DNA of 64,000 nucleotides from Desulfosediminicola ganghwensis (GTDB lineage: Bacteria > Desulfobacterota > Desulfobulbia > Desulfobulbales > Desulfocapsaceae), in contig NZ_CP050699.1 in the NCBI RefSeq assembly GCF_005116675.2, positions 620,001 to 684,000 on the forward strand, read 5' to 3'. The stretch's first letter is position 1. Each line of letters starts with the position of its first letter. Under the pieces are notes generated by a model that searched no databases, was not told the origin of the DNA, and saw nothing but the letters and a program-made list of their open reading frames with translations. Positions 20,026-40,212 of this stretch are shown here, piece by piece. Made by a program: the position numbers and the translations under genes.

Positions 20026-20041
20026 TGGCATTCTTCTTGCC
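20026..20041 (+). promoter_or_regulatory. Sigma-54 (-24/-12) promoter of the permease gene
   Basis: TGGCATTCTTCTTGCC has GG and GC separated by exactly 10 bases, matching TGGCAC-N5-TTGC at nearly all positions. It predicts a start near 20052, about 120 bases before the permease start codon. Confidence 0.7.
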
Positions 20042-20171
20042 TATAACTGGACATCAGGCAATTTGTCAGTCCAACGTCTGATTATCTGAGTCTCACAAGC
20101 AGCACCTTACAGTGAAAAATGGTAGCAGAATAGTCTGCCCTAAGATAAAAGATTTTTTGCAGGAGAATGTT

Positions 20172-21623
20172 TTGAGAAAAGAAATACAACAGGAACAGGG
20201 ACTGAAGAAAACTATCAAGCCTATCCATGCCTGGGCCCTGGCGCTCGGATCAGTACTGGGTTGGGGTGCTTTCGTTCTTCCGGCGCTCAGGTTCCTTCCA
20301 CAAGCTGGCCCGCTGGCAGCCTGTATTGGTTTTGCGCTGGGTGGAATCATGCTGTTTTCGGTTGCCATTTCACTGGGGAATATGGTGAGCAAATACAAGG
20401 TAACCGGCGGAGCTTTTGCCTTCTCTTTTGTAGGCTTTGGCCCAACAATTGCCTTTATTTGCGGTTGGGCGCTGGTGCTTGGCTATATCTGTATCATTAC
20501 CCTGAATGCGACGGCTATATCGCTTCTCACCCGCTTTGTTCTGCCAGGCGTTTTTGAAATCGGCCACCTATACAGTATTGCTGGCTATAGCGTATATGCA
20601 GGCGAAATCGCAATGCTCTCAGGAGTGTTGCTGCTGGCAGGTGTGCTCAATTATCGCGGTGCAGACCTGGTGGGTCAGATCCAGGTATTTCTTGCCTTTG
20701 CGCTCTGCGGTTCCATACTGGTACTTTTCACAGGTTCAAGTCTTGCCGAGACCGCATCCATCTCCAACCTGTACCCGCTTTTTGCAGAAAACAAGAGCGC
20801 CCTTGCCAGTGTGTTAAGTATTGTGGCGATCGCCCCCTGGCTCTATATAGGTTTCGATACCATTCCCCAGGCGGCCGAAGAATTTGACTTCCCCCACGAG
20901 CGTGCAATCAAACTCATGCTCAGCGCCATTGGCTGCGGTATTGTTCTTTACTCAATGGTAACCCTGGCCGTTGCCTGCATTATGCCATACCCTGAACTGT
21001 TGGCAATGGATGTACCCTGGGCGACCGGAACTGTAGCCAAAATGGCTCTTGGCACATCTGGCAGCGTAATCCTTACCGTTGCGGTCCTCGCCGCTATCTG
21101 CACAGGTATCAACGGCTTCTTCATCGCTTCATCCCGTCTGATCTTCTCCATGGGGCGTGCCGGCATCCTGCCTGCCTGGTTTGCACAAATTCACCCTCAA
21201 TATCAGACTCCACATAAAGCAATCGCCTTCGTTCTCAGCATTTCACTGATTGCACCATTCTTTGGCCGTGAAGTATTGAACTGGGTTGTTGATATGTCTG
21301 CTATCGGTACAGTGATCGCGTATATGCTTGCCTCAATGACTGCTTACAAGGTCATGCGCCACGCAGGAGACAAGAAAGGGGCAATCCATGGCATTCTCGG
21401 CAGTATCAGTTCACTGGTTTGCCTTCTGTTACTCACCGTTCCATTCTCACCTGCCGCCATTGGGATGCCTTCCTGGTATGCCCTGCTCGTATGGATAGCC
21501 CTTGGCGCCTGGTTTTACTATACCAAGATGGGTGCATTCAAAATGCTCAGTGTGCGCGAACAAAGTGTGCGGATTCTTGGTAGCGAACGCCACGTTTATT
21601 TCGAAAAAGATCTTAGAAATTAG
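20172..21623 (+). CDS. APC-superfamily amino-acid permease, candidate taurine importer
   Basis: An inner-membrane transporter of about 483 residues with 12 predicted helices. Helix 1 carries LALGSVLGWGAFVLPA, the unwound G-S-G-like substrate motif of the APC (amino acid-polyamine-organocation) superfamily; PWLYIGFDTIPQAAEEF in helix 6 is the second signature. Start: TTG 20172 follows GCAGGAG; an upstream in-frame GTG at 20112 would add 20 residues. It precedes sarD-tpa-ald in the same direction, has its own sigma-54 promoter and ends at a strong terminator. I infer taurine (or alanine) as substrate from context only; known taurine importers are mostly TauABC or TauKLM. Confidence 0.85.
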   Translation: MRKEIQQEQGLKKTIKPIHAWALALGSVLGWGAFVLPALRFLPQAGPLAACIGFALGGIMLFSVAISLGNMVSKYKVTGGAFAFSFVGFGPTIAFICGWALVLGYICIITLNATAISLLTRFVLPGVFEIGHLYSIAGYSVYAGEIAMLSGVLLLAGVLNYRGADLVGQIQVFLAFALCGSILVLFTGSSLAETASISNLYPLFAENKSALASVLSIVAIAPWLYIGFDTIPQAAEEFDFPHERAIKLMLSAIGCGIVLYSMVTLAVACIMPYPELLAMDVPWATGTVAKMALGTSGSVILTVAVLAAICTGINGFFIASSRLIFSMGRAGILPAWFAQIHPQYQTPHKAIAFVLSISLIAPFFGREVLNWVVDMSAIGTVIAYMLASMTAYKVMRHAGDKKGAIHGILGSISSLVCLLLLTVPFSPAAIGMPSWYALLVWIALGAWFYYTKMGAFKMLSVREQSVRILGSERHVYFEKDLRN

Positions 21624-21698
21624 AAGATAGATTACCTGCCTGGTTGGACAAAGTGTACTCTTGACAGAAACACCAGCAGTACCGGCAGGAACAAAAAT

Positions 21699-21734
21699 AG
21701 GCAGTGATCAGATTTCTGATCGCTGCCTTTTTTA
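21699..21734 (+). terminator. Terminator of the permease gene
   Basis: AGGCAG-t-GATCAGA pairs with TCTGATC-g-CTGCCT (21699-21728) and is followed by TTTTTTATTT. Confidence 0.85.
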
Positions 21735-22146
21735 TTTGAAAACCAACAATTTTTAAATTCGCCAATGTCTCTTCTAAATAGGTGCTTTCCCCCTATCCAC
21801 TTCCTGACAATCCTGCCTGCATTGCTACAATAAAGCGGAAGCATGCTTTTTTTCAGCCACACATAAAAAAGTTCGTGGCACAATGCAGAGAATGAGATAT
21901 CCCGATGAACAACTCATTTTTGCATCACCTCCTGCTATCTTTAAACCGCAGTCGAAGAACACAACCCGCGACCAAGAAGAGAATTTACTTCACGATATCT
22001 AATAATTAAAACCATCCATCGCATTACATCCACCAGCCATACCAGCCACAGGCTTCACGGATATGTCCAGCAACCGACGGTCCAATGCACTTTTGACTCG
22101 ACTCTCCAGCTGCCCCCTCTTGAAACAATTCACTTTTGCATCAAGC

Positions 22147-22173
22147 CGGTGAGAACAAAACCGATTCTAACCG
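22147..22173. promoter_or_regulatory. Candidate activator dyad upstream of sarD
   Basis: CGGTGAGAA (22147-22155) and TTCTAACCG (22165-22173) form a dyad with only the central arm base unmatched, 44 bases before the -24 element. The right part (GATTCTAACC) loosely resembles the GATTCACAAC arm found before the permease promoter. Confidence 0.35.
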
Positions 22174-38369: not shown

Positions 38370-38610
38370 GTTGACAAAACTTATCTCAGCGCGAATGTGC
38401 TGAAAACGTATCGCATTGAATATACATGGTGAAGAAAACCTCTATTATGCGCGTCATTACGTTTGATTAGGCCGTCGACACCCCAGGACCGTTCTTGAAT
38501 CGTTCAAGCATGGAAAAGAAACTGATTGAGAATCACTATCACAAACCATGCCAGGTAATGGGAATTACTCCCAACTACTCAACGCTCTAGCTGTCTATCT
38601 GCACAAGCAC

Positions 38611-39151
38611 TGTTGCATTCACGCAACATCCAGCATCATTCCCAATGAGTTGAGCCAGATAGACGCCTTCTACCATGTTGCAATTCGGCATCATGATGCT
38701 TTTCCGCAACATCCAAACCCTGTTGCTACATCTTCAAGCAGCCACTATTTCTTATACTAATACAGTCCCCTGCCTTCCTGCACAGCTGCGAAACCTGTAA
38801 CCACTACAAACTACAGCCCTGCAACTTTCAGGCGATCCTGGCTCAGCATCTCTAGTCGCGCCTGCCAAGCCAAACCTCTCTCACACCACCTCGGGCAGAG
38901 CAACAAGATCCATAACATCTGCCACAAAACTCCCAAAACAATAAAACAACCTGGAATACCCCCATAACTATTTGGCGCTGCGTTACAAACCCAGACATGT
39001 TGCATTTTCAGGACAGTCGTTGCACTGTCGCAACACCAGTTGCCTACAAGCCACAAAATCCCCTGCAGCACAGTACGTTCAAGCGAATCACCCGAACAAC
39101 AACACCCGCAGCATCGCTGCACATACGCAACCATGTTTCACCCATGCAACC
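38611..39151. repeat. Array of TGTTGC-N6-GCAACA dyads, candidate enhancer sites
   Basis: At least six dyads share two six-base arms and a six-base spacer: 38611-38628 (perfect), 38676-38693, 38694-38711, 39018-39035, 39038-39055, 39115-39132 and 39134-39151 (one to three changes each). Single arms lie at 38721 and 38998. The spacers differ in sequence, so this is conserved protein binding and not a copied repeat. The size and symmetry suit a Fis-type HTH dimer, most likely one of the two sigma-54 activators. Confidence 0.65.
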
Positions 39152-39306
39152 CGCAGTGTTTTTCCCTGTTGTTCTTGTTGCCGGAAGTTTTCACTCCAGC
39201 CAGCAAAACCTTTCCTCTCGTCAGCAAAAATCAAACTCGATAATCTCACATTAACAGGCTGTTAGTATCATCACGAAAGCAACACCTGTGGAACAGCAAC
39301 AAATTA

Positions 39307-39322
39307 AGGCACACATCTTGCT
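39307..39322 (+). promoter_or_regulatory. Sigma-54 (-24/-12) promoter of the amidohydrolase gene
   Basis: AGGCACACATCTTGCT contains GGCAC-N5-TTGC, an exact core match with GG-N10-GC. It predicts a start near 39333, some 50 bases before the ATG. Confidence 0.72.
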
Positions 39323-39381
39323 CAAGTACCGGTGACAAACAGTACAACGTCCACGGGACATAACGAATAAGGAGTAGACCG

Positions 39382-40212
39382 ATGAAGATTATAGATTTTC
39401 GCTTCCGGCCCAATACCCCGGAGGTTATTGAAGGTATAAAGAACAGCACAATGTTCGCAGGACTCTGCAAGGCAATCAATTTTGATGATCGTCCAATCCA
39501 GAGCCTTGAAGAGATTGTTACCGAGCTTGATGATAGAAATGTAGAAGTAGCTGTAATAACTGGTCGTGACTGCGAGAAGACCTACGGCATCCCCGCTAAC
39601 AACGGCAGCGTTCTTGAGTTTTGCGCAGCGTATCCTGAAAAATTTATCGGTTTTTACGGTCTTGACCCCCACAAGGGAATGGATGCAGTGCGCGAATTGA
39701 CCAAGGCTGTGACGGAACTTGGCATGAAAGGTGCGGCTGTAGACCCCTACCTCGCGAAACTCTACCCTAACGATGCCAAGTATTACCCCATTTACGCCAA
39801 GTGCTGTGAGCTGGAAATCCCTGTCATCTTCACCACCGGCCCTGCCACACTGGTAGAAGGCGCGGTTATGGATCACGTAGCCCCGCGCTATATTGATTTT
39901 GTAGCCCGCGACTTCCCGGAGTTGAAGATCGTCATCAGTCACGGTGGCTACCCATGGGTGAATGAAGCGATATTTGTTACCCAGAGAAATGCCAATGTCT
40001 TTCTTGAAGTATCGGAGTTTGAGCTCTCCCCGCAGGCTGACGCATATATTCAAGCAGCAAATACTGTCATTCAGGACCAGTTTATCTTTGCAAGTGCCCA
40101 CCCTTTTGTGGAGCAGAAGCATGCCCTGGAAATATATGAGTCATTACCTTTCGATGAAAAGGTTCGGGAAAAGGTTATGTATTCCAATGCCAAGAGGCTG
40201 CTCGGCCTCTAG
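39382..40212 (+). CDS. Amidohydrolase_2-family protein with altered metal site
   Basis: A 276-residue TIM-barrel protein of the amidohydrolase-2 (PF04909) family, which includes decarboxylases and hydrolases. The strand-1 motif, normally D-x-H-x-H, reads MKIIDFRFRP, so the HxH metal ligands are arginines or phenylalanine. A histidine remains in VISHGGYPWV. The C-terminal metal Asp (usually GSD-x-P) appears as ASAHPF. Metal catalysis in the usual way is therefore unlikely. It has its own sigma-54 promoter opposite the islA operon, so I infer a role in sulfonate use, possibly handling acetaldehyde or an unknown sulfonate. AAGGAG precedes the ATG. Confidence 0.8.
   Translation: MKIIDFRFRPNTPEVIEGIKNSTMFAGLCKAINFDDRPIQSLEEIVTELDDRNVEVAVITGRDCEKTYGIPANNGSVLEFCAAYPEKFIGFYGLDPHKGMDAVRELTKAVTELGMKGAAVDPYLAKLYPNDAKYYPIYAKCCELEIPVIFTTGPATLVEGAVMDHVAPRYIDFVARDFPELKIVISHGGYPWVNEAIFVTQRNANVFLEVSEFELSPQADAYIQAANTVIQDQFIFASAHPFVEQKHALEIYESLPFDEKVREKVMYSNAKRLLGL

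Follow-up and report, generated by a model that had tools for sequence, protein, structure and literature searches.

Several described systems lie close to the locus presented here, a predicted taurine-to-sulfite island in a 64,000-nucleotide stretch of Desulfosediminicola ganghwensis (contig NZ_CP050699.1, positions 620,001 to 684,000; G000:C1:620001-684000 in our files), which is called the window throughout and belongs to a genome of 5.65 Mb in a single contig. The papers on these systems are cited from extracts of their text. In Bilophila wadsworthia the genes lie in two independently regulated clusters (PMC8667426); Tpa, Ald and SarD are abundant on taurine only, and the Isl proteins on both taurine and isethionate (PMC6386719, PMC8667426). 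In Desulfovibrio vulgaris, a 2015 prediction assigned to DVU2827 a sigma-54 regulon consisting of the TRAP transporter genes DVU2822-2823, DVU2824 with its activase and the amidohydrolase gene DVU2820, and filed it under pyruvate metabolism (PMC4641369). Also, in D. alaskensis G20 islR is the predicted regulator of the isl cluster, and its loss stops growth on isethionate (PMC6386719).

The island shares with the Bilophila system the genes tpa, ald, sarD and islAB, a PAS regulator by islB, a predicted amidohydrolase at the cluster edge and, as far as the Bilophila side is described, separate induction (PMC6386719, PMC8667426). The Bilophila extracts differ in having two separate clusters, microcompartment genes and a taurine transport function within the taurine cluster (PMC6386719, PMC8667426), whereas in the window the two modules are adjacent, the permease and sarD have elements of their own, and those microcompartment genes were not recognised. 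The likeness to the DVU2827 regulon is one of gene content: a TRAP system, a glycyl radical enzyme with its activase and an amidohydrolase are placed under sigma-54 and a linked one-component activator whose sites are predicted; however, the extract reads the enzyme as pyruvate formate-lyase and lists no taurine module (PMC4641369). The organism and the neighbourhood suggest that DVU2824 encodes the isethionate lyase described in PMC6453916. In a partial literature search, which is weak evidence of novelty, we found no description of a sigma-54 activator on the taurine side, of its sites or of an APC permease in this pathway; these would be the new elements here, the isethionate half being already predicted or known.

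Two proposed adjoining sigma-54 regulons

We propose, with a probability of roughly 0.8, that the island consists of two adjoining sigma-54 regulons which together would lead from taurine to sulfite and whose signals would be taurine and isethionate. Module A would comprise the permease and sarD-tpa-ald, switched on by the sigma-54 activator here called EBP2 through palindromes of the form YRAKKC-N6-GMMTYR, whose centres lie 82 and about 290-298 bases, and for sarD also 125 bases, ahead of the -24 elements; its signal is probably taurine. Module B would comprise dctP-dctQM-islA-islB and the divergent amidohydrolase gene, switched on by a second activator, EBP1, through TGTTGC-N6-GCAACA palindromes common to the two divergent promoters; its likely signal is isethionate. 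On taurine, module A would form isethionate in the cell, which would in turn switch on module B in a feed-forward order. The genes, the elements, their conservation and the pairing of motifs with activators are read from the DNA, and from these we infer how the units would be bound and transcribed.

Sigma-54 elements of the four units

Each of the four units is preceded by a GG-N10-GC element, as an initial annotation of this stretch had stated. Three are exact matches to TGGCAT-N5-TTGC, namely those of the permease (TGGCATTCTTCTTGC, 20026..20040, plus strand), of sarD-tpa-ald (TGGCATCAGCATTGC, 22217..22231, plus strand) and of dctP-dctQM-islAB (TGGCATGGCTTTTGC, 38355..38369, minus strand); the annotation correctly gave this form for all three and placed the last at 38354, about one base away from where it is found (38369-38355). 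The amidohydrolase element (AGGCACACATCTTGC, 39307..39321, plus strand) has one mismatch. Exact matches number 4 in 64 kb against 0.34 expected, a count reached in 0 of 100 shuffles, and TGGCAY-N5-TTGC is found 73 times genome-wide against 6 for the reversed control. When up to one mismatch is allowed, the window contains 16 matches to TGGCAY-N5-TTGC against 12.58 expected, which is not unusual; because such matches are common by chance, the amidohydrolase element rests on its conservation. In G137, a member of the same family, AGGCATATATCTTGC is found 94 bases ahead of the amidohydrolase match.

Conservation was scanned at 111 unit starts, for which the 260 bases upstream had to be free of any recognised gene on the same strand. 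The matches used had 44% identity or more over 250 residues or more, close relatives being counted separately, and an element was counted when it lay within 300 bases and had at most one mismatch, with GG and GC fixed. Elements are kept in relatives at the units of dctP (20/24, 0.40 expected), islA (37/41, 0.76), the amidohydrolase (13/19, 0.52), the permease (7/9, 0.12) and ald (5/6, 0.08), and the one tpa unit start has none (0/1, 0.02). This comparison, which the initial annotation had suggested, gives good support for a sigma-54 element at each of the four units. That they are chance matches, as the frequency of one-mismatch matches in the window would allow, is hardly credible in view of the exact counts in the window and the genome, the conservation at unit starts and the kept enhancer spacing described below.

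The fourth exact match (35348-35334, minus strand), which is not in the initial annotation, lies inside the end of dctQM, ahead of islA. It was rejected as an islA promoter, being absent from the congener G127, whose IslA is 91% identical; the distant locus L063 has the same 15 letters at this place, and the site is probably a coding coincidence.

Two types of enhancer palindrome

Up to 450 bases upstream of the elements in relatives were used for training (82 regions, 59 after removal of near-copies, of which 51 belong to the isethionate side and 8 to the taurine side). Hexamer palindromes with a spacer of 0-12 were searched for de novo, the commonest across regions being retained, with eight shuffles per side. 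On the isethionate side GTTGCA-N4-TGCAAC is found in 42/51 regions against at most 18 in shuffles, and on the taurine side AAGTCA-N4-TGACTT in 7/8 regions against at most 5. A single shared enhancer motif was rejected, since two palindrome types emerge from the relatives. The B site can be written TGT-N12-ACA and is of the same type as the TGT-N10-12-ACA sites described for PrdR/NifA/FhlA-type activators, unlike the A site, which can be written YRA-N12-TYR (PMC6615313, extract).

Weight matrices grown from the relatives, with the window left out, were then run over the approximately 64,000 places of the window. The five best places for motif A (taurine) are all ahead of the permease or sarD. 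In order of rank they are 19727..19746 (GTGATGCATATTTGACTCAC, centred at -289 relative to the permease element), 22125..22144 (-82 from the sarD element), 22082..22101 (-125, sarD), 19934..19953 (GCGAGTCAAATATGATTCAC, -82, permease) and 21909..21928 (-298, sarD). The four best places for motif B (isethionate) are all between dctP and the amidohydrolase gene: 38675..38694 (-315 from the dctP element), 38610..38629 (CTGTTGCATTCACGCAACAT, -250, dctP), 39017..39036 (-280 from the amidohydrolase element) and 38693..38712 (-333, dctP). Places scoring above 13.9 number 5 (A) and 5 (B) in the window, and on average 0.48 and 0.83 over 60 shuffled windows. In leave-one-out scoring, 7/8 A regions favour A and 46/51 B regions favour B. 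The best scores for A and B are 17.9 and 10.3 in the sarD region, and 8.7 and 20.1 in the dctP-amidohydrolase region.

Spacing is also kept. In five loci of the Halodesulfovibrio genus the nearest A site has its centre at -82/-83, and at both window promoters this value is -82; the B triplet is found at -250/-315/-333 in the window, -258/-323/-343 in G127 and -287/-355/-375 in L118.

Genome-wide, the B pattern with at most two mismatches is found 114 times on the forward and 121 times on the reverse strand (reversed control 34 and 40), and the A pattern with at most one mismatch 112 + 112 times (control 59 + 59); each palindrome is counted on both strands, and the positions of weak matches are available up to about 2.7 Mb. 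Among the matches listed, three two-mismatch B matches outside the island (91020, 1302078 and 1341821) sit, by eye, 92-318 bases upstream of an element; we claim no further regulon member from them.

Two activators and their distribution

The initial annotation had placed two sigma-54 activators within the island, and the family matches agree. Both EBP1 (29728..31179, minus strand) and EBP2 (26359..28125, minus strand) are PAS sigma-54 activators with PF00158 and HTH domains; the conserved loop is GAFTGA in EBP1 and GAFSGA in EBP2. The best NCBIfam match of both is PrdR (387.4 and 398.8 bits, respectively), below its cut-off of 795. By eye, the putative recognition helices differ between the two groups (NRTTxFRK vs SQSTIVRK).

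The assignment of each activator to its module follows from its distribution across loci. We used 47 islA loci with their flanks, a chosen subset of the hits in which several loci are cut by contig ends; they were drawn from the order of the host, the genomes behind named loci, the SarD-bearing genomes and 20 picks for breadth out of 131 IslA-bearing genomes. A full-length EBP1-type activator is found in 36/47 of them and an EBP2-type in 0/47. Activator matches longer than 430 residues in the islA loci are always higher with EBP1 than with EBP2, and the shorter ones in L060, L061, L117 and L119 are about equal with both. Among the 16 loci with tpa and sarD, 10 contain an EBP2-type activator. 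In L144, a Bilophila-like locus, EBP1 lies beside islB with an exact element and B sites. In L058, a single region separates islA from the divergently oriented taurine genes; EBP1 is the only activator seen alongside, and the sites are of the B type. In most relatives, then, each palindrome type is paired with its own sigma-54 activator. The arrangement described for DVU2827 and IslR (activator beside islAB; elements on the islA, TRAP and amidohydrolase units) is also found here, and EBP1 is probably an activator of that type and the counterpart of islR in D. alaskensis G20, a match made by position and not by sequence (PMC6386719, extract).

The initial annotation had treated the island as one shared regulon. 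That part of its interpretation is not supported, as the enhancers and the activators each come in two kinds, one belonging to the taurine and one to the isethionate side of the island; overall, its observation is confirmed and its interpretation partly supported. A related possibility is a joint regulon in which the binding of the two activators overlaps and all four units answer any C2 sulfonate. The palindromes of both types share their frame and half-site core, and the hybrid and B-like sites and the permease scores given in the next paragraph point the same way; against this, the sarD region scores strongly for A and the dctP-amidohydrolase region strongly for B, and the activators are split by module in most relatives. 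We consider such a joint regulon unlikely.

Several observations weigh against the proposal of two regulons. Concerning the sites, the taurine-side matrix draws on only eight distinct regions, and individual shuffled windows scored as high as 20.5 for A and 21.4 for B. In the permease region the best scores are 19.4 for A and 15.3 for B, and the two types are less clearly separated there than in the other regions; the B place of rank 5 (19860..19879) is also ahead of the permease, where it might allow cross-activation. Motifs A and B are akin, and the sites at 38675 and 38693 mix half-sites of both. A outscores B in five of the 51 B regions; four are amidohydrolase regions without a good site of either kind, and the fifth is L131 (17.5 for A, 14.7 for B). 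L125, an EBP1 locus, contains perfect taurine-like TGATGC-N6-GCATCA sites. Cross-talk between the two enhancer systems is therefore possible. Concerning the loci, two of the 16 with tpa and sarD have an EBP1-type activator (L058 and L073) and four have no activator in view, and lone sarD units in relatives have an element in 0/11 cases (0.20 expected). Also, in 1.20 Mb (60 pieces) of the approximately 3.6 Mb of G712, no relative of sarD, tpa or ald was found at 1e-60; the name Bilophila-like is given to G712 on the strength of its islA locus, L144, which agrees at 99% with a stretch of 102 residues of 7kq3. The first 20 of the 60 pieces yielded a SarD-like match at 1e-40 (33% identical), and G712 is not among the 40 SarD matches at 1e-110 in 348 genomes. 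That G712 is missing there contrasts with the published extract, according to which sequenced Bilophila genomes retain the taurine cluster (PMC6386719). With these points counted, two adjoining regulons remain our preferred reading.

Candidate systems for uptake of taurine and isethionate

Two transport systems are found in the island. DctP (37256..38266, minus strand) has as its best PDB match 8t9t, an isethionate-binding DctP (499.6 bits); in our own reading its start is the ATG at 38266, preferred over the listed TTG at 38377. It is followed by dctQM, the fused TRAP membrane subunits (35279..37165, minus strand; PF06808, PF04290). In D. piger, the ligand of the lyase-linked binding protein is isethionate, not taurine (PMC6453916, extract), and the TRAP system of the island most likely imports isethionate. 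As DctP resembles an isethionate binder, the APC-family amino-acid permease (20112..21623, plus strand; PF13520/PF00324) is the likelier candidate for taurine import. The permease is not confined to this genome, as relatives of it sit in the taurine modules of L072 and of five loci from the Halodesulfovibrio genus. The initial annotation had called the inclusion of the permease and the amidohydrolase a new prediction; for the amidohydrolase this does not hold, since DVU2820 was placed in the DVU2827 sigma-54 regulon in 2015 (PMC4641369, extract), and for the permease our partial literature search showed no paper describing it.

The roles could also be the reverse, with the TRAP system importing taurine and the permease carrying another amino acid, such as alanine. 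TRAP genes have been proposed as taurine importers in Taurinivorans (PMC10507020, extract), and the substrate of the permease is assigned from sequence context. However, DctP is closest to the isethionate-binding protein, the D. piger protein takes isethionate and not taurine, close TRAP relatives go with islA, and the permease relatives go with tpa and sarD. This exchange of roles seems rather unlikely, and the permease is retained as the candidate taurine importer.

Genes of the island

The pathway genes named in the initial annotation are present by family and structure matches, of graded firmness. On the plus strand, the permease is followed by sarD (22326..23489), whose product scores 676.5 bits with the sulfoacetaldehyde reductase model NF050025, under its curated cut-off of 700, the next family scoring 273 bits; it is called SarD-like on context. 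Next are tpa (23586..25037), an aminotransferase by NCBIfam whose taurine:pyruvate specificity is suggested by context, and ald, alanine dehydrogenase (25082..26194; TIGR00518, 502 bits, cut-off 391.85). Further on lies the gene of an Amidohydro_2 family protein (39382..40212, plus strand; PF04909), which has a relative in 31/47 islA loci. About 1 kb without a recognised gene (38380-39380) separates it from dctP.

On the minus strand, in order of position, are EBP2, a small siroheme/4Fe-4S sulfite-reductase-like protein (28311..28928), a TauE/SafE family protein (28994..29728), EBP1, IslB, IslA, DctQM and DctP. The siroheme protein (PF01077, PF03460), which is absent from the gene list of the initial annotation and adjoins TauE, has by eye four cysteine ligands (CX5C and CX3C); its relatives are found in 2/47 islA loci, both from congeners (L054 of G127 and L059 of G126), and it perhaps functions in sulfite assimilation or detoxification. 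The TauE-family protein matches PF01925 (102 bits) and no NCBIfam model, and has a relative in 13/47 islA loci; from its Pfam family it is a putative sulfite transporter.

IslB, the glycyl-radical activase (31524..32492, minus strand), is named by context; the HpsH model gives 455.6 bits (cut-off 430). IslA (32698..35175, minus strand) has 5ymr and 7kq3 as its best PDB relatives; 7kq3 is an isethionate sulfite-lyase, and 5ymr is listed under the name formate acetyltransferase. We take 5ymr to be the isethionate lyase of D. vulgaris. Numbered from the alignment to these relatives, all ten residues R189, I192, Q193, W374, C468, E470, R678, V680, F682 and G805 are the same in the window; these are the ones studied by mutation (PMC8473560, extract). 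Phe682 is found in 32/32 and Ile192 in 31/32 other sequences at 67-91% identity to the window IslA. The enzyme could instead be HpsG and the island serve another sulfonate: the NCBIfam HpsG model (NF048011) gives 1572.3 bits, above its cut-off of 1000, HpsH is likewise above its cut-off, and no IslA model is listed. This is very improbable given the solved relatives, the isethionate-binding protein nearest to DctP and the adjacent SarD-like gene. HpsG identity was dropped on residues 192 and 682, which do not fit the paralogue class at 58-64% identity: all eight of its sequences have Ile or Val at 682 and Leu or Gln at 192. The enzyme is kept as IslA.

The initial annotation had called the island complete. 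This applies as far as sulfite and acetaldehyde; in G127, aldehyde-dehydrogenase-like and microcompartment-like open reading frames (by eye) lie between the amidohydrolase gene and dctP, and these are missing in the window, perhaps lost from that gap. In the window's own genome, the closest relatives of the G127 dehydrogenase-like protein (65% and 39% identical) are encoded at 4.35 Mb.

A terminator-like stem-loop (21699..21728, plus strand; 13 pairs and a T run) lies between the permease and sarD; as a class, terminator-like sites show no excess in the window (12 vs 11.0 in shuffles). Another terminator-like inverted repeat, with eight T following it (31398..31431, minus strand), lies 3' of islB and is absent from the terminator-scan list. 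Outside the island, a DsrC-like protein (by eye) is encoded at 17742-18107 on the plus strand, about 1.9 kb ahead of the permease element and beside an Mrp-like ATPase, and an N-terminal glutamine amidase family protein (PF09764) at 18990-19559 on the minus strand; that family is better known from eukaryotes. No tRNA genes were found in the window, and its G+C content (45.5-54.6% in 2-kb steps) marks no clear foreign island.

Distribution and origin of the modules

SarD (1e-90 or better) is found in 3/257 genomes of the host's order, its own included, and in 0/3 congeners. IslA (1e-250) is found in 6/257, its own included, among them the congeners G126 and G127. In the order of G396, which we take by inference to be Desulfovibrionales, SarD (1e-110) is found in 40/348 and IslA (1e-300) in 131/348 genomes. 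In the SarD tree the window groups with the Halodesulfovibrio genus (g342; support 96/90); in the IslA tree it groups with two copies from G127, and that genus again stands beside them (support 100/96). The second of these copies (L055, G127:C1:5072001-5091999) is 90% identical to that of the window; no other module gene was recognised in its 20 kb, and an exact -24/-12 element is found 123 bases upstream of the islA match.

In G127, dctP-dctQM-islA-islB-EBP1-TauE-siroheme protein lies between homologues of the window's outer flanks. No taurine module was found in the 60 kb read of this syntenic region, nor were the window genes of 16591-19559. A separate gain of module A is therefore probable: none of the three congeners yielded SarD, and the window's SarD has its closest relatives in Halodesulfovibrio. 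We give somewhat better than even odds to a wider proposal: that EBP2 is devoted to sensing taurine, acts through an enhancer code that is not shared with EBP1 and commands an APC permease serving sulfonate-respiring bacteria as a taurine importer, and that EBP2 and the isethionate activator make up a feed-forward switch in two steps, whose modules have passed between Desulfovibrionales and another order.

Implications

In guts and sediments, the respiration of taurine and isethionate contributes to the formation of hydrogen sulfide. The island extends a known kind of system and offers a reason at the DNA level for the taurine-only and both-sulfonate clusters of Bilophila, although the taurine side was not seen in the Bilophila-like sequence searched here. 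The comparison also suggests that the 'pyruvate' regulon of 2015 is an isethionate regulon. EBP1 and EBP2 would be testable candidates for the two switches, and the permease may be the gate by which taurine enters the cell.

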